The position numbers and the translations under genes were made by a program. A DNA stretch of 64,000 nt from Aurelia coerulea (Eukaryota; Cnidaria; Scyphozoa; Semaeostomeae; Ulmaridae), in assembly GCA_039566865.1 (NCBI GenBank), contig CM076949.1, positions 20,312,501-20,376,500 on the forward strand. The letters are read 5' to 3'. Below, piece by piece: positions 34,125-58,375 of this stretch. The first letter of the stretch is position 1; every line of letters starts with the position of its first letter. The notes under the pieces were generated by a model. The model saw nothing but the letters and a program-made list of their open reading frames with translations. It made no database searches and had not been told where the DNA came from.

Positions 34125-34341
34125 GAACGCCGTTTGCACAAAATGACATAAACATAGTTTATGTTACATAAACTATGTTTATGTGCACATAAACTCAGTT
34201 TATGTAACATAAATATAGTTTATGTGCACATAAACATAGTTTATGTACATAAAACTATGTTTATGTGCACAAAAATGGACATAACCTATGCTTATGTGCA
34301 CATAAACATAGTTTATATCCATTTTTATGCAAACGGCGTGG
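34125..34341. repeat. Palindromic minisatellite in inverted-repeat element
   Basis: Outer ends CGCCGTTTGCACAAAATG and complement (CATTTTTATGCAAACGGCG). Between them is a tandem run of the self-complementary unit CATAAACATAGTTTATG with ACATAAAC and GTGCAC spacers, about ten copies. A shorter copy of the same element lies at 35261-35338. Confidence 0.8.
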
Positions 34342-44139: not shown

Positions 44140-47100
44140 TCAGTTCATCCTGTTAGTAGCTTTGATATATGCTATGGATGCCTCTAAAATCATTCGATTG
44201 TCAGTTTCATCAAAAATTGGGCAACCGAAAAGAAGCAAATTAAGCAGGGCTTTTGAATCCATGTTGTTTACATCAAAATCTGGAAGGTGTGAAAGCTGTC
44301 CAAGGAGATCATTACGCATAGGAACAAACAAAGGGCAATGCAGGAAAAAGTGCACATTATCCTCAATTCCAGTATTACAAGCACACATAGCATAGGAATC
44401 ATTCGTCGTACATAGCCGATTGCTCGTGGCCCATGGTCGAAACCGCCAAAGCCTCATTTTCACGGACCAATCAGGCGGCTAAAAAGCGAGGGAGACAAAA
44501 GAAACCCGTGAAGATTTTCCTAAATTTTACCTACCTTCATAAAACGCAACCAGGAGGAAAAACTGCTTGAGATTTTCCGATTTTTTTTGAAGCAATCTAC
44601 TCTCCAGATGTTTGGGAGTAAAAGTTTGGATGCCGGTTAAAACATCTCCAGGATTGGTGGAGTTATGGCCACAAACAAACCGACAAGGCACTGAACCTTG
44701 AACAATAGAGATTCTGGCCGGGAGACAATAGTAATAACAAGAGTGATTGTTGTAAGAACGACCCAAAAACGCCACAATCTGCGTTTTCAATTGTTCTTGC
44801 TATTGTCTTTCGCTAAATTTTCTTTTATTGAAGATTCAATGCCTTTACGGTTTCTATGTGAATTGAAAAAGTCTATACAAAGGCTTGTTCGCGCATTTCA
44901 AGTCATGTGGCAATGCTCTAGGGAAGTTTCTGTATTGTACTACTTTTTATATTCATGGCAAAAGTTTGCTCGTTGCAAAATAACTTATAAAATTCAAAAG
45001 AGGTTTTATCAAGAGGCTTTATCACCTGACTTGAAGTGGCGTAAACAGGTCTCAACAAGCCTTCGCCGATTTGTCTATTGGAGAGGCAATAACTCCGCCA
45101 ATCCTGAAGATATTTTAACCGGCATCCAAACTTGTACTCCCAAACATCTGGAGAGTAGATTGCTTTAAAAAAATTCGGGAAATCTCAAGCAGTTTTTTGT
45201 CCTGGTTGCGTTTTATGAAGGTAGGTAAAATTTAGGAAAATCTTCATGGGTTTCTTTTGTCTCCTTCGCTTTTTAGCCGTCTGATTGGTCCGTGAAAATG
45301 AGACTTTGACGGTTTCGACCATGGGCCACGAGCAATCGGCTATGTACGACGAATGATTCCTATGCTAGCACACATGGGACTCGGGCACTGGAAATTATGG
45401 CGGAATTTATGCTCATTTAACAAACTAAATTCAAGTCTCAGCATTGTCAGTTGCTTTACGCCAAAGATATCGAATACTCCAAACAAGGAATTTTTTACCG
45501 GTCTTATCAAAGTAAGCAATTTTCGTTTGAACTCGGCAATTGTTGCAGAATTTCTAATATTTTCATCAAGCATATTCCATTCATGGAGAACATTTGTGAA
45601 GTATGTATTTGAAGAGCGCTTTGTCTTACTGAAAGGTATGTCATAATCACGTTTGCCTCTTAGACCATACTGAAGTGGTCTTTCTGTTGGTAATTCTGCG
45701 AACAGATAGGAAGAAGTACCCGTTTTCCTTAGGTTGAAAAGATGACATAAGCGTCTGAACCATCTTCGATGGTACAGACTTTCCCAACAAAGCTCATTAT
45801 AGAGCTTTTGTCTGCTAGTTCCTCTCCAGGCACCCGCAACAGCGAGAGCCGCTGAGTACTGGGTTTGTTCGATTCTTTTTGTAAAATTTAGAATCATGTC
45901 AGGATCATATCTGTGATAAATGATATCACCATAATCCAGGTGCGGCCGAACGTATAACTTATAGATCTGATCAAGGACATCTCGAGATACATATTTAGAA
46001 AGATATTTGATCATTCCTATTCCTCGTCTAGCTTTTAAGATAGCCTTTCTAATATGACTTTTAAAGTCGAGCTTGGAATCAAGAATTAATCCAAGATGCT
46101 TGTGTTCATCCTTCCTTGTCACTTCATCCGACCCCAGGTTCAAAGGCGGGTGTTCTATTTTAGCCCTTTTGACTGAGAAAATCACCTCTTCTGTTTTATC
46201 ACAATTAAACTGCATCTTCCATTGCCAAGCCCAAAGCCGCACTCTTTCAAGATCCTGATTAAGACTCTCAGTAGCCTCATCTTTGTCCTTAACAAATGAA
46301 AAAATAGAAGTATCGTCTGCGAAAAGCTTGATGTCGCTGTGCACACCCTCGACGAGGTCATTTATATACACAAGAAAGAATAGGGGGCCTAAAACTGAGC
46401 CCTGAGGCACACCCGAGGTAACTGTTAACCAACGAGAGTTTTTACCATTTAAGACAACTCGTTGCTGTCGGTTTGTCAAAAAACTACGAAAAAGTGTTAA
46501 TAAATTTCCGGATATTCCGTTACATTCGAGTTTATACAGTAGACCTTCATGTCAAACTCTGTCAAAGGCTTTTGATAGATCTAGGAAAACAGCACGGGTC
46601 TCTAGGCTAGGAACATTCTCAAAAGAACAATAAATCTTATGTGTAATTGATAGTAACTGATTAATTGTTGAATCACCTGGCTGGAAACCCGATTGATGAG
46701 GGGTTAGAAGACCATTTTGTCGTAGGTGGTTATAAACCGAGTCAAATATCATCTTTTCAAACAGCTTTCCAAAAATTGGAAGTAGTGAAATTGGACGATA
46801 GTTGGTTTTACACCGCCTGCTATCTTTCTTGTGTATAGGAATGACATTCGCCTTTTTCCACAGAGATGGGTACATACTCGTTTGTAAACAATTTTCAAAA
46901 ATAAGACACAAGGGTTCAACTATTGAGAAGTCACAAATTTTTATCATAGCAATAGAGATGTCATCACAACCATGAGACTTTTTGCTATCTAGGGATCTAA
47001 TAAGTTTGAGAACCTTCTCCCTGTCGATGGTCAGTCCCTCTAAAAGGGCTGGACTCCTTGGTGTAAAAGATGGAAGGGTGCTGCTCGTTGATGTTTCAGA

Positions 47101-47176
47101 GCACATTTTTACAAAGAATTCATTGAAAATATTTGCCTTGTCCTCTAAGTTTGTCACAAAGAGTCCATTTTCTACT
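44140..47176 (-). pseudogene. L2/CR1-like LINE reverse transcriptase (outer LINE, 3' part)
   Basis: Reads from VENGLFVTNLEDKANIFNEF at 47176 down to a stop at 44140, apart from the insertion 44389-45366. Motifs in order: KKANVIPIHKKDS, NYRPISLLPIFGKLFEK, AVFLDLSKAFDRV, VTSGVPQGSVLGPL, the active-site FADDTS (near 46315), KHLGLILDSKLDFKSHI, and the C-terminal HKFRHNF...CNTGIEDNVHFFLHCP knuckle. An in-frame TGA at 46552-46554 replaces an expected Trp after AFDRV. The frame is otherwise open, so the copy is young but dead. It probably continues upstream as the endonuclease at 55502-56741, with the inner LINE between. About 100 linker codons are missing at the junction. Confidence 0.88.
44389..45366. 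mobile_element. Long-TIR element, 978 bp, 9-bp TSD, inside LINE
   Basis: Ends AGCATAGGAATCATTCGTCG and complement. Perfect 9-bp duplication AGCACACAT (44380-44388 and 45367-45375), which lies in the LINE reading frame, so removal restores a continuous frame. Inverted arms run about 290 bases and include ACATCTGGAGAGTAGATTGC. The centre (about 44690-45060) holds a plus-strand frame of 156 codons with no known motif. The first eight bases match the AGCATAGG MITE family. Confidence 0.9.
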
Positions 47177-47348
47177 TTATTATTATTATTATTATAACAT
47201 TATTTACAGTTGGTTAAAAAAAACTGATAGTTCAAAATTGAACTAATTAAGACCAACTATTTACACAAAAAGGAATACTAATTACAATGAATAGATAAAT
47301 ACATGATTATAATACAGAAATATTTCTGGTGAAATTCCCACGGACTCT
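47176..47348 (-). repeat. Inner LINE 3' untranslated region with TAA/ATA tail
   Basis: Follows the stop of the reverse transcriptase frame at 47349 and ends in (TAA)n at 47178-47196. A short trinucleotide tail is typical of CR1/L2 LINE 3' ends. Confidence 0.75.
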
Positions 47349-49709
47349 TTATCTACATATTTTGCATGAGCAACTGTCACCCTTCCACTCTTTAATTGAT
47401 CTCTTAAAGCTAGCACTGGTTGCCAGGCTTTTTATTGAGTCAGACAAAGTGTTCCAAAGGATGGCCCCCCTGAAAGATAATGAATCATTTCCATATGACA
47501 AGGTGTTGGTGCTTGGTAACCGTAGAAGATTTTTAGTCCTTAGGTTATAGGCTACATCTTTTGCCTGGAAGATATTCCACATAAAAGATGGATTTTCCGA
47601 ATTGAGGCATTTATATATTTCCAGCATTAATTTTTGCAAATTTCGAGTGTGAATAGCACATTCGCTACCCCTAGCTAAGAGTTCAGCAAAGGGGGCTGCG
47701 AAATCCTCCCACATTATTCTCAGTGCCCTTTTATGGACTCTGTTTATTGCTGCATTGGCATCTTTCCCACAGAACATCCAGATTAAAGGACAATAATTAA
47801 AATTTGACATGATAAATGTATTATAAAGAATACGCCTCTTGTCCTGATCTAAATATTCTGCTACTCGTGAAAACGCACTGGTCTTGTTGTTGGCTTTTGT
47901 GCAAAGTGTTTTTACATGTTCGGAAAATTTTAGCCGGGGGTCAATAGTAATACCTAAGAGTTTCACTGTGCTAGTTGCAGGAATCGGTTTCTTATCAATT
48001 TCAAACATGTATTCCTGGCCTGGTTTCAGCCCAAGAAACATGACTTGAAATTTGGAAGGATTTGCAACCATTCCATTGTCCCGAAACCAACACAGCGCAT
48101 TATGGGTATCATTCTTAAGACAGGATATAACATGTTCTAGGTTTTGACTGCATGCATATATTGTATTGTCATCTGCAAAATTACAGAACTCTGACTTAGT
48201 AATGGCATATGTGAAATCGTTCATGAAGAAGTTAAACAGAAATGGACCTAACACTGAACCTTGGGGGACACCTGATTCTATGTTTTGCCATTCGCTAAAT
48301 GAGTTGCCACATTTGACTCGTTGCTTCCTGTTTGAGAGGTAACTTGAAAAGAGTTTCAGGCTTTTTAGACCAAAACCATAGGCAGCCAGCTTAGCTATTA
48401 AGAGATCATGTGGAAGGCAGTCGTAAGCTTTTGACAAATCCATCAGTACCATTCCCACATAGCCCTTTTTATCCAGTGTACTGCGACAAGCTTCAATAAG
48501 ACGGAACAGCGCGTGTTGTGTACTGTAACCGTTACGGAAGCCACACAGTAAACTAGAAAGTCTGGTATTTGCAAACGGTGTCATTTGCTTGGCCATGATG
48601 CGCTCAAAGACTTTAGATAGGGCTGGAAGGACACTTATAGGCCTAAAATTAAATTTTAATGTAGAATCATCAGCTTTAAAGATAGGTGATACATCAGCCA
48701 GTTTTAGTTGGTCTGGAAATTCGCTATTTCCGAACATCTTATTAATATACAATGTGATCTGATCAATACACAAACCTGAGAGTAATTTTAGAATGTCCGT
48801 AGGAATCTCCCCACTAGATTTTTTTGAACTATTAAGCTGGTTGATTTCATTCCAGACATCAATGGGTGCAACAAAATTAAATTCAAATTCGTCAACAATA
48901 CCAACAGCCTCCTTGATTCTGATAATACTTGGATGGTTCCTATATTTTTGGATCGAATGCAGCACATGATCAGTTGTCGAAGTGACTTCAACGTCAGACT
49001 CTGGCGGTGCAGTGATAGGTAGTGTGTCGGTTATATTTACAAAGTAAGAATTGAAAACTTCACATATCATCTTGTCATCATTTATGATGTTATCGTTTTC
49101 TACAAGAACTATTTTGTTGTGCCCAGATGTTTTGTCAGTAAAGAGGGGCTTGAAAGTTTTCCAGAAATTTTTATCTTTTCCAACTTCTTTAGGGTCTAGT
49201 TGGGCGAAAAACTTCCTCTTTGCTGCTCTGTTCAACCTGACAACTAAATTTCTCTGTTGCTTATATTTGCGAAAGTCTTCTTCTGTTCGTGTTTGATTGG
49301 ATTTATTTTTCAATCTTGTTCGAACCATAATTGCTTTTTTGAGTTCTTTTGACACATGGGGCTTGTTGTTTCCCCTGAATATAGCTGTCTTAAGGGGAGC
49401 ATGCTTGTCTAGCTTTGCCTTTACCAATTCCTCGAACTCGTCATATGTTTTAGGTCTGGTTGTACAGAGTCCATTAGCTAGGTCTGCTTGAAAATCCTGA
49501 TCCGAAAAATGTTTGTAGTTGCGATATTTGACAACCTTTGGTGGGACCTTAATGAAGGTAGTTTTTAGAACTGTATAGATCATGTGATGATGGTCACTGA
49601 AACCTGTTTCAAAACTCTGGCTGTTCTGAAAACTGTGCTTTCGATTTGTAAGAAAGAGATCGATACACCTGCCAGACTGACTTTTGAAACAAGTAGGAGT
49701 TTTTATCAT
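47349..49709 (-). pseudogene. CR1-like LINE ORF2: endonuclease end plus complete reverse transcriptase (inner LINE)
   Basis: 786 codons open without a stop. It begins with the last part of an APE-type endonuclease (TCFKSQSGRCIDLFLTN, then FETGFSDHHHMIYTV) and continues through a full reverse transcriptase: FRPISVLPALSKVFERIM, GMVLMDLSKAYDCLPHDLL, SGVPQGSVLGPFLFN, active-site FADDNTIY (near residue 510), VKLLGITIDPRLKFSEH and YCPLIWMFCGK. It ends with a family-typical LSFRGAILWNTLSDS. At 49710-49764 a short piece of endonuclease (LDVSAHSGGLLVY) is fused directly on, so about 130 residues of endonuclease including catalytic parts are deleted. The rest of the ORF lies at 54034-54227, beyond the satellite element. 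Confidence 0.92.
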
Positions 49710-49789
49710 ACTGTACAGTCATACACAAGAAGCCCACCAGAATGAGCTGATACGTCTAATCTATAATAGTGAGGGCTGTTAGCACAAAA

Positions 49790-51170
49790 AAATAGGTGAA
49801 TCGTGCAAATTGTGATACCAGCATGAAACTTGGTAGAGATGGGCAGTTTGATACGCTGAAAAAGATGGGATGTGGACACAAGCTGAAAAATGCCCCCTTG
49901 TGCTATTTTTAGACTGGGGTACTAGGCTCCAGGCCTCCAAAAAGGAAATTGCAATCATTTTGCTGCAAACTACGATACCAGCATGAAACTTGGTGAATAT
50001 GGGCAGTTTGATACGCTGAAAAAGATGGAATGTGGACACAAGCTAAAAAATGCCCCCTAGTGCTATTTTTAGACTGGGGTACTAGGCTCCAGGCCTCTGA
50101 AAAGGAAATTAATTTTGCTGCAAATTATGATACCAGCATGAAACTTGGTGGAGATGGGCAATTTGATACGCTGAAAAAGATGGAATGTGGACACAAGCTA
50201 AAAAATGCCCCCTAGTGCTATTTTTAGACTGGGGTACTAGGCTCCAGGCCTCTAAAAAGGAAATTAATTTTGCTGCAAATTATGATACCAGCATGAAACT
50301 TGGTGGAGATGGGCAATTTGATGCGCTGAAAAAGATGGGATGTGGACACAAGCTGACAAATGCCCCCTTGTGCTATTTTTAGACTGGGGTACTCGGTTCC
50401 AAACCTCTAAAATGGAAATCGCAATCATTTTGCTGCAAATTATGATACCAGCATGAAACTTGGTGGAGATGGGCAATTTGATACGCTGAAAAAGGTGGGA
50501 TGTGGACACAAGCTGACAAATGCCCCCTTGTGCTATTTTTAGACTGGGGTACTCGGTTCCAAACCTCTAAAATGGAAATCGTAATCATTTTGCTGCAAAT
50601 TTTGATACCAGCATGAAATTTGGTGGAGATGGGCAATTTGATGCTCTGAAAAAGATGGGATGTGGACACAAGCTGAAAAATACCCTCTTGTGCTATTTTT
50701 AGACTGGGGTACTAGGCTCCAGACCTCTAAAAAGGAAATTGTAATCATTTTGCTGCAAATTATGATACCAGCATGAAACTTGGTGGAGATAGGCAATTTG
50801 ATACGCTGAAAAAGATGGGATGTGGACACAAGCTGAAAAATGCCCCCTTGTGCTATTTTTAGATTGGGGTACTCGGTTCCAAACCTCTAAAATGGAAATC
50901 GCAATCATTTTGCTGCAAATTATGATACCAGCATGAAATTTGGTGGAGATGGGCAATTTGATGCTCTGAAAAAGATGGGATGTGGACACAAGCTGAAAAA
51001 TACCCTCTTGTGCTATTTTTAGACTGGGGTACTAGGCTCCAGGCCTCTAAAAAGGAAATTGTAATCATTTTGCTGCAAATTATGATACCAGCATGAAACT
51101 TGGTGGAGATGGGCAGTTTGATACGCGGAAAAACATGGGATGTGGACACAAGCTTAAAATGCCCCTTGCT
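49790..51170 (+). repeat. Left satellite array, about 9 units of 154-160 bp
   Basis: The unit contains GCTATTTTTAGACTGGGGTA, then GATACCAGCATGAAACTTGG, then AAAAGATGGGATGTGGACAC. Two subtypes (CTCGGTTCCAAACCTC and CTAGGCTCCAGGCCTC) are mixed in the order B, B, B, A, A, B, A, B. Antisense frames of about 96 codons recur with the repeat and are not genes. Confidence 0.95.
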
Positions 51171-51179
51171 TTTTTCCGA

Positions 51180-52790
51180 CTTGGATACTAGATACTACCG
51201 TAGGTTCCATGCCCCTTTTTCCACCTCGTAATATCGCGCCGAAACCCAAGAGTTAGATGTGAGCCTATAAATGGCTATTTTGTTTAAAGGAACGATAATG
51301 AAGTTAAGGAAGAAATATATGAGGTATTACCAACCGGCTGCTCCCCAGCAGTGCTCTCGAGGACTGGGGCAGAGTTTGTTGTATTGTAGGATCACAATTG
51401 AAAGGGGACCTTTTGGTAATGTTTTGTGGATGTTTTACCAGTGTTTTACAGTGTCTTGGTTCGTAAAGGGACGGGGGTGGATTTCACTAAATGTCTTCAC
51501 AATTTAGGTTGTTATTTTGTTATATTTTCTGGAATACATTTCCTTCAATATCAGGTTTATTGTTCTCGTGTGTACTGGTGTTTGTTTTGAAAGAGAATCA
51601 AAGAAGCTACATGGTGAAAACGCTGAGAAGGATGCGAAAAATGGGACTGAGTTAGGTTTGGCACAGGATCTCCGTATACAGAGGCCTCTTGTACTTATCA
51701 TGTTGCCTGGTGGGATTGGTATATTGTGTGTCATGTTGTGGTTTGGAGGAAATAGGGAATGGGGCATGAGAGTGGGGGGCTAGAATTCTCCAAAGCCTTT
51801 TTTAATTTGGTTCTTAAGGGTTCTGTCGTGTATTTCATGTGATGTTAAGCTTCTGTGTCAAGTTTGTAAAGGGTAGGGTGTGAGAATAGGCTCACAATTT
51901 CAACGGGAGGTGCTAGCACAAGGATATGCCGAGTGACCGTTTGGGTGGGGGGGGGGGGGGTTGGTGTTAAGCAAGGCAATCTGATTGGTGGTTCATTTGT
52001 TAAAATCACTTTCTAGTTTCTGTTTTTGTATGTTGAGGTTTATTTTTCACAATCATTTGATCTTCAACGGTTCTCCTGTCAATATTTCTAGGGTATTAGG
52101 ATCGGAACATTGCCCCTGAAGGGAGATGCAGGTACCCTCAGTGATCCCTGGCCAGTGGGACACTGTCAATGACTATATATAGCTAGTTTTGTTGTGATTT
52201 TTGTTCCACTTGGTTTGAAGGGAGGTGAATTGGGTTTTGATTTCAAGATATTTGGTATTGTGCTGAGTTTAGGCCTTGCAGTTGTAATTATTGGTTGTAT
52301 CAGTTTATCGTCGTGTTATGATAGTATGTATGAATGATGGGATGGAGCGAATTGTACATGAAGCACTGAAAAGGGGAAGCATAGGTGGTTGGGGAAAGGG
52401 AATTGCCTTAACGTTTTATGCCAAGTTTGGAAGAAAAGGTACCATGAAATTAATCATCGAATTACAGGCTGTGTATAAAGTATGAACATGACATTTGCAT
52501 TATTTGCAAGTTCTGTTTGTCTGCATGAAGACTTGCATGGTTCGTTTTTTAACTGTCCATTGAATTGTAAGTGTAAATGTAAAGTGTTTCTGCTAGCAAC
52601 TTAGCATGGTGCGTCAATGATGGCAGAAAATCAGGAGTGAAGATAGGGTCACCCCGCTAGATAAATGTGTGGATCACACCGCTCAATAGCAGCATGCAGT
52701 AAAATCATTCTGGCGATCAGCTAGTTTCGCAACATCAATTCCAATTTCAACAAGAAGTACTGGACCAAATAAGCAAATCTAAAAAGAAAA
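51180..52790 (+). other. Core of the satellite-armed element
   Basis: The plus strand is rich in G and T and poor in C, with a run of about 14 G at 51948-51961. Open frames at 51271-51507, 51517-51783 and 52291-52485 show no known motif. It may be non-coding core sequence. No transposase catalytic pattern was found. Confidence 0.4.
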
Positions 52791-52799
52791 TTTGGGATC

Positions 52800-54005
52800 A
52801 TTTTTACACTTGCGTCCGCATCCCATTTTTTTCAGCTTATCAAACTGCCCCATCTCTACCAAGTTTCATGCTGGTATCATAATTTGCAGCGAAAATATAG
52901 CGATATCCTTTTTAGAGTCCTTGAACCTAGTACCCCAGTCTAAATTAGTACAAGGGGACCTTTTCAGCTTGTGGTCACATCCCATCTTTTTCAGCGTAAT
53001 CAAACTTCCCATCTCTGTCTACCAAATTTTATGCTGGTATCACATTTTGTTGCAAAATGACTACGATAGAATTTTTTAGAGGCCTGGAACCTGTACCACC
53101 CCAGTCTAAAAATTGCACAAGGGGGTATTTTTTAACTTGTGTCCACATCCCATCTTTTTCAGCGTATCAAATTGCCCATCTCCACCAAGTTTCATGCTGG
53201 TATCATAATTTGCAGCAAAATGATTACGATTTCCATTTTAGAGGTTTGGAACCGAGTACCCCAGTCTAAAAATAGCACAAGGGGGCATTTTTTAGCTTGT
53301 GTCCACCCACATCCCATCTTTTTCAGCGTAACAAACTGCCCATCTCCACCAAGTTTCATGCTGGTATCATAATTTGCAGCAAAATGATTACGAAGTCCAT
53401 TTCAGAGGCCTGGAGCCTAGTACCCCAGTCTAAAAATAGCACAAGGGGGCATTTTTTAGCTTGTGTCCACATTCCATCTTTTTCAGCGTATCAAACTGCC
53501 CATCTCCACCAATTTTCATGCTGGTATCATAATTTGCAGCAAAATGATTACGAAGTCCATTTCAGAGGCCTGGAGCCTAGTACCCCAGTCTAAAAATAGC
53601 ACAAGGGGGCATTTTTTAGCTTGTGTCCACATCCCATCTTTTTCAGCGTATCAAACTACCCATCTCCACCAATTTTCATGCTGGTATCATAATTTGCAGC
53701 AAAATGATTACGAAGTCCATTTCAGAGGCCTGGAGCCTAGTACCCCAGTCTAAAAATAGCACAAGGGGGCATTTTTTTGTCCACATTCCATCTTTTTCAG
53801 CGTATCAAACTGCCCATCTCCACCAATTTTCATGCTGGTATCATAATTTGCAGCAAAATGATTACGAAGTCCATTTCAGAGGCCTGGAGCCTAGTACCCC
53901 AGTCTAAAAATAGCACAAGGGGGCATTTTTTTGTCCACATTCCATCTTTTTCAGCGTATCAAACTGCCCATCTCCACCAATTTTCATGCTGGTATCACAT
54001 TTTGC
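52800..54005 (-). repeat. Right satellite array, about 8 units, inverted
   Basis: Same unit as the left array, in the opposite orientation. The outer units nearest 54005 are most alike (four share GATTACGAAGTCCATTTCAG). Inner units near 52800-53100 are more diverged, as expected if new copies arise toward the end. Confidence 0.95.
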
Positions 54006-54033
54006 ACGATGCATGTAATAAGCTCCCCCACTA

Positions 54034-54227
54034 TAAGGCTTCTTGTAACCTGGGATCATGAATTGTGATGTAGGGAACGAGCTATCTAGTTTGGTCTCTG
54101 CTATAACTAAGACATCCACCGAGCCCTGTAAAAGAGCAACAAAATCATGAAATTTGTTCCTGATCGAGTTTATGTTGATATAACTTATGATAATCTTTTT
54201 CGGATTTGCAATGCGCAGTGTTTTCAT
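54034..54227 (-). pseudogene. Inner LINE ORF2 N-terminus, APE endonuclease start
   Basis: MKTLRIANPKKIIISYININ, then NSIRNKFHDFV, VLVIAETKLDSSFPTSQF and GYKKPY up to the insertion point at 54033. YININSIRNK and ETKLD are the first two APE-endonuclease blocks (the Glu of AETKL is catalytic). It continues at 49764 after the satellite element. Confidence 0.9.
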
Positions 54228-55505: not shown

Positions 55506-56741
55506 TCTTATAAGGAGGGGGGCAAGGAAGAGAGATGTTTAATCCACCAAACACAATTTGATGTTGACAATGTTCGTCAAGAGATGGGTGTACTCCATAT
55601 TCGATAAAGATGTTTGGTTGGTCGGTTATAATTAAATCGATACAAGTCATGCTTTCTCCTCTTATGTTAGTTGGTTCATCAATGAGCTGGTATAAATTGT
55701 TAGTCTCGATAAGTTCCTCTAGTGCCGTTCCCTCAGGAAGTTCTTCATCCAGGGGCCACCACTGCGCAGATCTACAATTAAAGTCACCCGTTATAATATG
55801 AAGGAATATGGGCGTTCCACCCTAACTTTGTCTATCACAGTTTGTAACCCAGAAATAAACTCTTCAAATTCTTCAACATTCTGGCTAGGACTACGGTAGA
55901 CAACAGAAAATAAGACTTTTTTGCGAGCAACAGTTATTTCGGCACAAACCATTTCATTTAGCGATTCAAGATCTGTTCTTCGCTTAATTGACAGCCCATC
56001 GCGAAAATTAATGCAGACCCCACCACTTCTTAGATTATTAGCATGATCACTGCGATAAATTTCTCTGCTAAACCCTTCAATAGGAATATCATCATTATGC
56101 ACAGTGCTATTTAACATTGTTTCGGAGATCGCAAAAATATCATAACGATGAATTGAATTGTAAGCCTCGATTAGAGAAATTTTTATCTGCTCTCTAGCAC
56201 ATATGCTGTTTAAGTTCCAGTGACAAAATTTTAGAAAACCATTTCTATTGGGACCTGGGTTTTGCTCAATATCACCAGAAAGTAGTATCAATATATCCAA
56301 ATAGAAATACGTCAAAACATCAAAATACTTGCATATCATAAAGCTATAAAGAAAAAGTTTTGCATTCCAAACAACTTGCTTCCGAAAAGACGCAGAGCTG
56401 ACAAAAGTATTTATAAGAATGTTCAGGGATCTGTGTATGACGTAAAGAATGAAATAAGCTGCAGTTGAGACATGCCCAGAAACCTGTGAATAAACAAATC
56501 TAGGGTCATGCCACCTGTAATTAGCAGGTGTGACAACGCTGAGGACAGATGCAGTTAAAATCGAGCAGGGAAGGAAAAACACAGACACACTGATTATCAA
56601 ATACATATAAACAAAAACAGAGCACACAGAGGGGAGCAAAGCCATTAGTGACACCCTTTGGAGAGCAATCAATTGAAGCCTGGAATTTGAATGCGCAATG
56701 CCTGCACGCCATTGGCTGATTCCTATCGGCATACAAGCCAC
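55502..56741 (-). pseudogene. Outer LINE ORF2 N-terminal part: hydrophobic leader, 2A motif, APE endonuclease
   Basis: From the ATG at 56741: about 150 residues with several hydrophobic stretches, then DILILLSGDIEQNPGP (2A motif at 56250-56276). The APE endonuclease follows: FCHWNLNSI, DIFAISETML, SGGVCINF, VLFSVVYRSPSQN, a one-base frameshift near 55790, TGDFNCRSAQWW, MTCIDLIITDQPNIF and SLDEHCQHQIVFGGL, ending at PPPYKRT where the inner LINE interrupts it. All APE blocks, including catalytic Asn, Glu, Asp-Asn and His positions, can be seen. The reverse transcriptase probably lies at 44140-47176. Confidence 0.88.
56250..56276 (-). other. 2A-like ribosome-skipping peptide, GDIEQNPGP
   Basis: Nine codons, GDIEQNPGP, matching the D-(V/I)-E-x-N-P-G-P consensus, preceded by a hydrophobic LILLS stretch as usual. 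2A peptides make the ribosome skip the Gly-Pro bond and are known in APE-type non-LTR retrotransposons of several marine invertebrates. Here it would separate the hydrophobic leader from the endonuclease-polymerase. Confidence 0.9.
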
Positions 56742-57339
56742 CGTTGATCACCTTGGACACGAAGTTCACACCTTCTCCTGCGAATATTGCCTATTGTTAG
56801 ACAGCGACCTTTAAAAATGAAACAAAGAAGATATTTTAAAAGTTTCAAAAAGAACAAAAAACAACTCATGATGTAAAAAGGACGTGAGGTTTTACGAGTT
56901 CTGGGGCAATAGGATTTATTCAAAAACAGTTCTTTCGAAAAGTTATTGAACCTTACAAAAGATTAGGGGAAGTTGACCTAACAAATTAGCGACCTGAACT
57001 AAGGTAAACAACATCGCAACAACCGCAACGGAGCAACCGACCAGACAGGCCAGAGAAGGGAGGCGCCAAACCCCAGGGAACTGAGAGTCACATAGCTAGC
57101 TAGCTACTCGACAAGTCAAAATTTAAGAGCACTCTGTTTATTAAGTAAGAGCCAAAAAATAAATTGAAATATAAATTGGAATTACTCTAAAGAATTCCAT
57201 CAGGGGCATGGCCCCACACCTACCCCAACCCCCAGAATTTGCTCCACTGCAGCGAAAGCGAATTTACCCCCAACTCAACATGTCGCAGGACATATTATAA
57301 TGGTGTTATGATCTGAAAAATAAATAAATAAACAACAAC

Positions 57340-58110: not shown

Positions 58111-58375
<265 letters not shown>

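Follow-up and report, generated by a model that had tools for sequence, protein, structure and literature searches.

The window analysed here is a 64,000-nucleotide stretch of the Aurelia coerulea genome (assembly GCA_039566865.1, contig CM076949.1), and it contains at positions 49767–54033 a non-coding DNA transposon that interrupts a long interspersed nuclear element (LINE). The transposon has short terminal motifs, behind which two tandem arrays of a 160-bp unit face each other across a core. A first-pass annotation made from the sequence letters alone had proposed a mobile element with these limits, which proved exact to the base, and the observation is confirmed: this is a real, multi-copy element and its mobility is demonstrated by the copies described below. 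The features of the locus, with the basis of each in brackets, are as follows.

47349–49718, minus strand: reverse transcriptase frame of the interrupted host LINE (RVT_1, E = 1.9e-31)
49764–49766, no strand: left target site duplication TAA, 3 bp (sequence; 3-bp flanks across copies)
49767–49785, plus strand: left terminal motif TAGTGAGGGCTGTTAGCAC (genomic matches against a reversed control)
49804–51216, plus strand: left array of the 160-bp unit, eight full units plus partials (Tandem Repeats Finder (TRF), register and unit identities, profile search)
51217–52739, no strand: core without units or recognisable coding capacity (open reading frame list, Pfam, genome copies)
52740–54006, minus strand: right array in the opposite orientation, seven full units plus partials (TRF, unit identities, profile search)
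54012–54033, minus strand: right terminal motif TAGTGGGGGAGCTTATTACATG, read inward, as is TAGTGAGGGCTGTTAGCAC (genomic matches against a reversed control)
54034–54036, no strand: right target site duplication TAA (sequence; 3-bp flanks across copies)

The scar of the insertion can be read directly from the interrupted LINE. The TAA on either side of the element is TTA on the other strand, in agreement with the TTA-type duplication first proposed. The collinear LINE endonuclease frame claimed at the same time is also present: read on the minus strand, ...FMIPGYKKP of the right flank runs into YRLDVSAHSGGLLVY of the left flank, with one TTA at the junction of the restored frame. A 2-bp TA duplication, judged from the flank letters, would disrupt this frame. 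Stops about 20 codons further along the endonuclease frame are a separate lesion of the LINE. Other LINE-like frames lie nearby, at 45340–47199 (two reverse transcriptase pieces) and at 55791–56747, the latter with no Pfam match.

The opposed 160-bp arrays of the window copy stand as first described, with eight and seven full units plus partials in place of the eight to nine copies originally given to each. A unit-free core exists as well, but its first limits of 51180–52790 have to be narrowed to about 51217–52739 (roughly 1.5 kb), since a profile search extends the arrays inward to about 51216 and 52740. Some 37 bp separate the left end from the start of the left array. Full units within the element are 80–100% alike; the outer four units of the right arm are 99–100% identical, the innermost two full units of that arm are the most diverged, and across the arms L4, L5 and L7 are each 96% alike with R5. 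The longest gap-free facing arms cover 470 nucleotides at 92% complementarity, and a stem of 1.2 kb formed from the two arrays would need bulges. When the core was considered as a coding sequence, Pfam returned nothing above the curated cut-off for six frames of the window and eight frames of copies, and an Rfam scan of 49700–54100 gave no match at E ≤ 1. Searches for unit remnants or inverted symmetry deeper in the core scored within the range of randomised sequence.

We then used the core and the two ends to search the window's own genome (574 Mb, 294 contigs), as the first-pass annotation had recommended. The core search returned 86 matching pieces, and 39 of 112 candidates were scored; all copy counts are therefore lower bounds. 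Apart from the window, the 20 places with the best scores were examined over 10 kb each, with two further places (L029 and L030) examined additionally. The ends and core of the window element recur in other copies, and in 19 of the 20 the core lies between facing units. The exception, L025, has only the right array, its left end lying about 5.2 kb before the core and outside the fetched 10 kb. Because facing arrays recur in 19 of 20 other places, they are not an assembly artefact of one place. Allowing up to two mismatches, the left end motif has 95 genomic matches (43 exact; reversed control, three) and the right end motif 51 (reversed control, none). Array length, which was to be compared between copies, ranges from one to nine full units per arm where the arm was seen, and the numbers on the left and right are uncorrelated (rho = −0.10, p = 0.70, 17 copies).

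Both ends are recognisable in 17 copies, the window included, and L017, L018, L021 and L025 lack one or both within the fetched stretch. Equal 3-bp flanks were found in 15 of the 17, compared with at most 8 of 17 in 2,000 permutations. The equal flanks are TAA (five copies), TTA, TCA, TAC and ATA (two copies each), and TGA and TTG (one copy each). Both TAC copies, L020 and L023, share 5.5 kb at 99.1% identity, part of the flanks included, and were thus counted as one, which leaves 14 of 16 independent sites with equal flanks. The two lie 13 Mb apart on the same contig (C9), in what is a duplicated or nested locus.

The order of units within the arrays gives a more direct view of how they reach new sites. 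We typed 198 full units by single linkage at 98.5% identity and found eight and seven full units in the window copy as well as in L011 (contig C8), with the same type and order at 13 of 15 positions (left, 11 18 19 x 20 10 x 10; right, 4 4 4 4 12 13 7). The two x positions hold one type in L011 and are unclassified in the window. Since the flanks of the two copies differ, the arrays travel with the element, and the original claim that it carries tandem arrays to new sites is borne out. Likewise, L019 and L022 share the unit order 0 1 2 / 0 3 0 1 9 at different sites, and L009 has a core that is 99% identical yet only one and five full units. Together these cases indicate that arrays move with the element and also gain or lose whole units. 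The nearest neighbour of a unit is mostly in the same arm, either of another copy (163 units) or of the same copy (22 units), and is found less often in the other arm (another copy, 11; same copy, two). Between 15 copies (L014, L017, L018, L021, L023 and L025 were left out), the first outer units are 95% alike in both arms, compared with 90% on the left and 86% on the right for the innermost full units. This gradient would fit either binding sites or growth near the ends and does not decide between them.

The ends also define elements of very different size. End matches were paired within 15 kb using 49 of the 95 left matches (43 exact, five with one mismatch and one with two mismatches sitting at a core) and all 51 right matches; the 46 remaining two-mismatch left matches, including 28 sister ends, were omitted. 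This gave 40 end pairs: 16 of 195–197 bp, one of 259 bp, 20 bearing a core (2,844 to 7,854 bp, window included) and three pairs without one (2,601, 9,979 and 11,542 bp), where 'core' refers to a list of 27 places that does not include the most diverged core places. Two 196-bp elements that were examined, L031 and L033, consist of one end, unit positions 1–30, an inverted unit from 70 to 1 and the other end, with TCG on both sides. An unpaired left end, L032, is followed by one unit and by no recognisable right end within 5.3 kb; it was considered as a coding relative and rejected, its 273-codon frame being low-complexity and without a Pfam match.

A sister end, TAGTCAGGGCTGTTAGAAC, accounts for 28 of the 95 left-end matches. 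Two partly fetched copies, L035 and L036, have sister ends like TAGTCAGGGCTGTTAG on both sides, facing arrays (three and three unit matches in L035, seven and eight in L036) and another interior, which gave no match to the window core. Their flanks are TAT on both sides of L036 and unequal in L035 (TAA and TGA). In a third copy of the sister type, L034, 4 kb of sequence shows units only on the left, and these are interrupted by a segment carrying a GIY-YIG domain (L034:514–978, E = 1.4e-05). GIY-YIG domains occur in Penelope-like elements.

Cores can be found outside this design too. The inner core (about 51272–52643) recurs elsewhere in the genome without arrays, in the relatives L029 and L030, and more diverged core pieces (76–84% identity) lie at other genomic places; L029 and L030, the two that were fetched, have neither units nor ends. 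Thus either the element acquired an independent repeat as its inner core, or the transfer went the other way. The array-less relatives span 3853–6121 of L029 (C19) and 3452–6523 of L030 (C7). L029 has 619-bp direct repeats (98.4% identical) around approximately 1 kb, and we considered both as long terminal repeat elements; with no clean ends and no duplication, they were left unnamed.

A larger relative with a transposase, which the first-pass annotation had suggested looking for, was found in part: a 10-kb element with long frames exists, and no transposase domain was recognised in it. This element (C17:7985087–7995065) is flanked by TTG on both sides; its left array comprises three full units and one partial unit, and its right array also contains both full and partial ones. 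It matches the window core only over approximately 100 bp at each inner edge (positions 4–104 at 79% and 1492–1611 at 89%). Its plus-strand frames include ones of 751, 363, 136, 133 and 90 codons, the last of them Cys-rich. A PDB sequence search with the 363-codon frame gave a single chance-level match (E = 0.15). A GCDT stretch and the Cys-rich frame bear a putative resemblance to Academ proteins. The Pfam scan, the PDB search of one frame and the structure models yielded nothing usable on an Academ transposase with a nuclease, and no Academ domain was demonstrated. Between the large frames is a 2.8-kb stretch (L037:3311–6102) with 400-bp inverted copies at its bounds and a 1.1-kb palindrome inside, which looks like a nested insertion. 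On this evidence the 10-kb relative is a candidate mobilising element whose protein family is unproven.

We consider it probable that the window element is a non-autonomous transposon of foldback design, with the facing 160-bp arrays as its arms, and that a longer, same-ended relative mobilises it in trans. Movement would be by cut-and-paste, with a transposase from the 10-kb relative or close kin acting in trans on the shared ends, and the encoded transposase would most likely belong to the Academ (AcademX) superfamily. The units are predicted to hold repeated binding sites for it, as the greater likeness of outer units between copies would suggest. Unit number would change by unequal exchange, and the arms may occasionally swap units through pairing of the inverted arms. 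A wider proposal, which we advance tentatively and rate as somewhat short of probable, is a foldback branch of Academ-type transposons in which the ends and satellite arms are common to a 10-kb coding element, array-armed elements of 3–5 kb whose cores can be exchanged, and miniatures of 196 bp. The unit would then spread as a working part of a transposon, with ordered sets of about 15 units copied to new sites by transposition. It is plausible that the element seeds free satellite arrays.

Several observations weigh against this account. Two of the two-ended copies, L014 (damaged ends) and L016, lack equal 3-bp flanks, and no partner was found within 15 kb for 9 of the 49 left and 11 of the 51 right end matches. 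The nearest neighbour is in the opposite arm for just 13 of the 198 units, which makes exchange across the arms an occasional event. For the 751- and 363-codon frames of the 10-kb relative, Pfam returned nothing at E ≤ 1, and the single-sequence structure models were too poor for use (mean predicted local distance difference test scores of 34.9 and 36.5). Given the apparent nested insertion between its large frames, this 10-kb copy need not be active. Lastly, when a 1.5-kb piece of the C21 pair (1976274–1987815, 11.5 kb) was compared with the core, the units and the 10-kb element, none of them matched.

Among other explanations, the satellite may once have been free and later captured between transposon ends, in which case the ends rather than the units would matter for movement. 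Derivatives of 196 bp with little unit sequence exist, as this explanation would have it, but the two examined share their outer flanks and so sit in another repeat, which may have multiplied them. The sister end type can be read in its favour, since two of its three partly fetched copies have related facing arrays whose interior gives no match to the window core; against it, the array design is common to two end types and the 10-kb relative, and the units abut both ends in register, each end being bordered by what is itself a unit tail. We regard such a capture as unlikely.

The first-pass annotation had also pointed to Harbinger- and MULE-like elements. PIF/Harbinger elements make a 3-bp TWA duplication (TAA or TTA), and the scar here is indeed 3 bp long, but TWA makes up only 7 of the 15 equal flank pairs and the other eight are not TWA. 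The large frames of the 10-kb relative also lack a Pfam match at E ≤ 1, and a PIF/Harbinger element with unusual subterminal arrays seems improbable on this limited evidence. The MULE lead finds no support in the scar, which is 3 bp compared with 8–10 bp in MULE-like foldbacks such as Tm1. Finally, a degenerate inverted duplication or assembly artefact in place of a transposon can be dismissed for practical purposes: while arrays are hard to assemble and the flanks contain many repeats, the same ends and facing arrays occur at many places with matching 3-bp flanks, and the frame is restored at the empty site.

Possible traces of related elements beyond the window's own genome came from translated repeats. 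A chance open frame in the array matched 10 proteins, and an alignment of such frames matched 45 (ENA contigs). These proteins are translations of repeats, not genes. Six of the 38 examined reach a window-like end (P0121, P0122, P0127, P0128, P0129 and P0158), and P0121, P0128, P0129 and P0158 continue past it into other sequence. The matches suggest that other assemblies contain related elements, although the window's own genome may also be their source. The viral and GTDB collections gave no confirmed relatives.

Within the window, the profile search found no further copy of the 160-bp unit at E below 0.1, and a loose form of the end motif had two matches, including the element's own end, with 1.01 expected by chance. 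Elsewhere in the window, a palindromic unit like ACATAAACATAGTTTATGT is repeated in tandem at 34146–34316, and about 75 GAT triplets at 58119–58343 lie within an open frame as a long aspartate run.

Helitrons and Helentrons are not known to make a target site duplication, nor Helentrons to have such inverted arms, and the 3-bp duplications found here set the element apart from them. The window element resembles the Helentrons of the Pacific oyster as a mobile element that spreads a satellite-like repeat (PMC7492417). According to a 2025 review, satellites can arise from terminal inverted repeats (TIRs) and from short internal arrays, and Tetris is among the cases it cites (PMC12628747). The window element bears on the origin of dispersed short satellite arrays: arrays of eight and seven units, in one order at two places whose flanks differ, were put there by transposition and not by local amplification at each site. 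Literature searches by general terms did not find the window element's family, and the piggyBac-linked short elements of corals (CMITEs) were set aside as having another design, as far as their description was consulted (PMC2872659).

The design itself, for which the first-pass annotation knew of no named family, is already known, since the foldback elements Tetris and Galileo F have the same layout. In Tetris of Drosophila virilis, the inverted arms contain tandem repeats of approximately 220 bp, variable in number, that fed a satellite; the duplications are 8–10 bp, the flanking domain is up to 866 bp and there is a short related derivative, DAIBAM (PMC4079207, in the sections used here). 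The window element shares with it the inverted tandem-repeat arms, the short derivative and the absence of apparent coding capacity, but differs in its 3-bp duplication and in a flanking domain of about 40 bp. While the sections used from that paper report that no element coding for the Tetris transposase was found, here a same-ended coding relative exists as a transposase candidate. Galileo F, of the P superfamily, has up to three tandem repeats of approximately 210 bp, unequal between arms, and 7-bp duplications (PMC3573991, in part). The likeness extends to arm tandem repeats, differing numbers between arms and exchange between copies; the 7-bp duplications, the limit of three repeats and the long non-repeat TIR parts of Galileo F are different. 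Galileo repeats contain transposase binding sites, according to the portion consulted of work on Galileo G of D. buzzatii (PMC3688188). Tm1 and FB-type elements likewise have composite inverted repeat arms of variable number, and a single family includes transposase-coding members and members resembling miniature inverted-repeat transposable elements; their repeats are 13–15 bp and their duplications 8–10 bp in the sections drawn on (PMC3169594), unlike those described here.

Overall, variable-number tandem-repeat inverted arms around a middle domain (window and 19 of 20 copies) and a target site duplication (15 of 17 two-ended copies) are what defines a foldback element, whereas the duplication is 3 bp and not the 7–10 bp of the FB, Tetris, Tm1 and Galileo group. 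The element thus works in a foldback-like way without being a member of these named families. The duplications of AcademX are 3 or 4 bp and those of AcademH 9 or 10 bp (PMC10045372, in part), and the 3 bp of the two-ended copies and of the 10-kb relative agree with the former; arm arrays are unmentioned in the part of the AcademX description drawn on. With small, medium-sized and coding members sharing a set of ends, the family makes the role of the repeated subterminal units in transposition testable, and it would bring the foldback design to a transposon whose duplications are 3 bp long.

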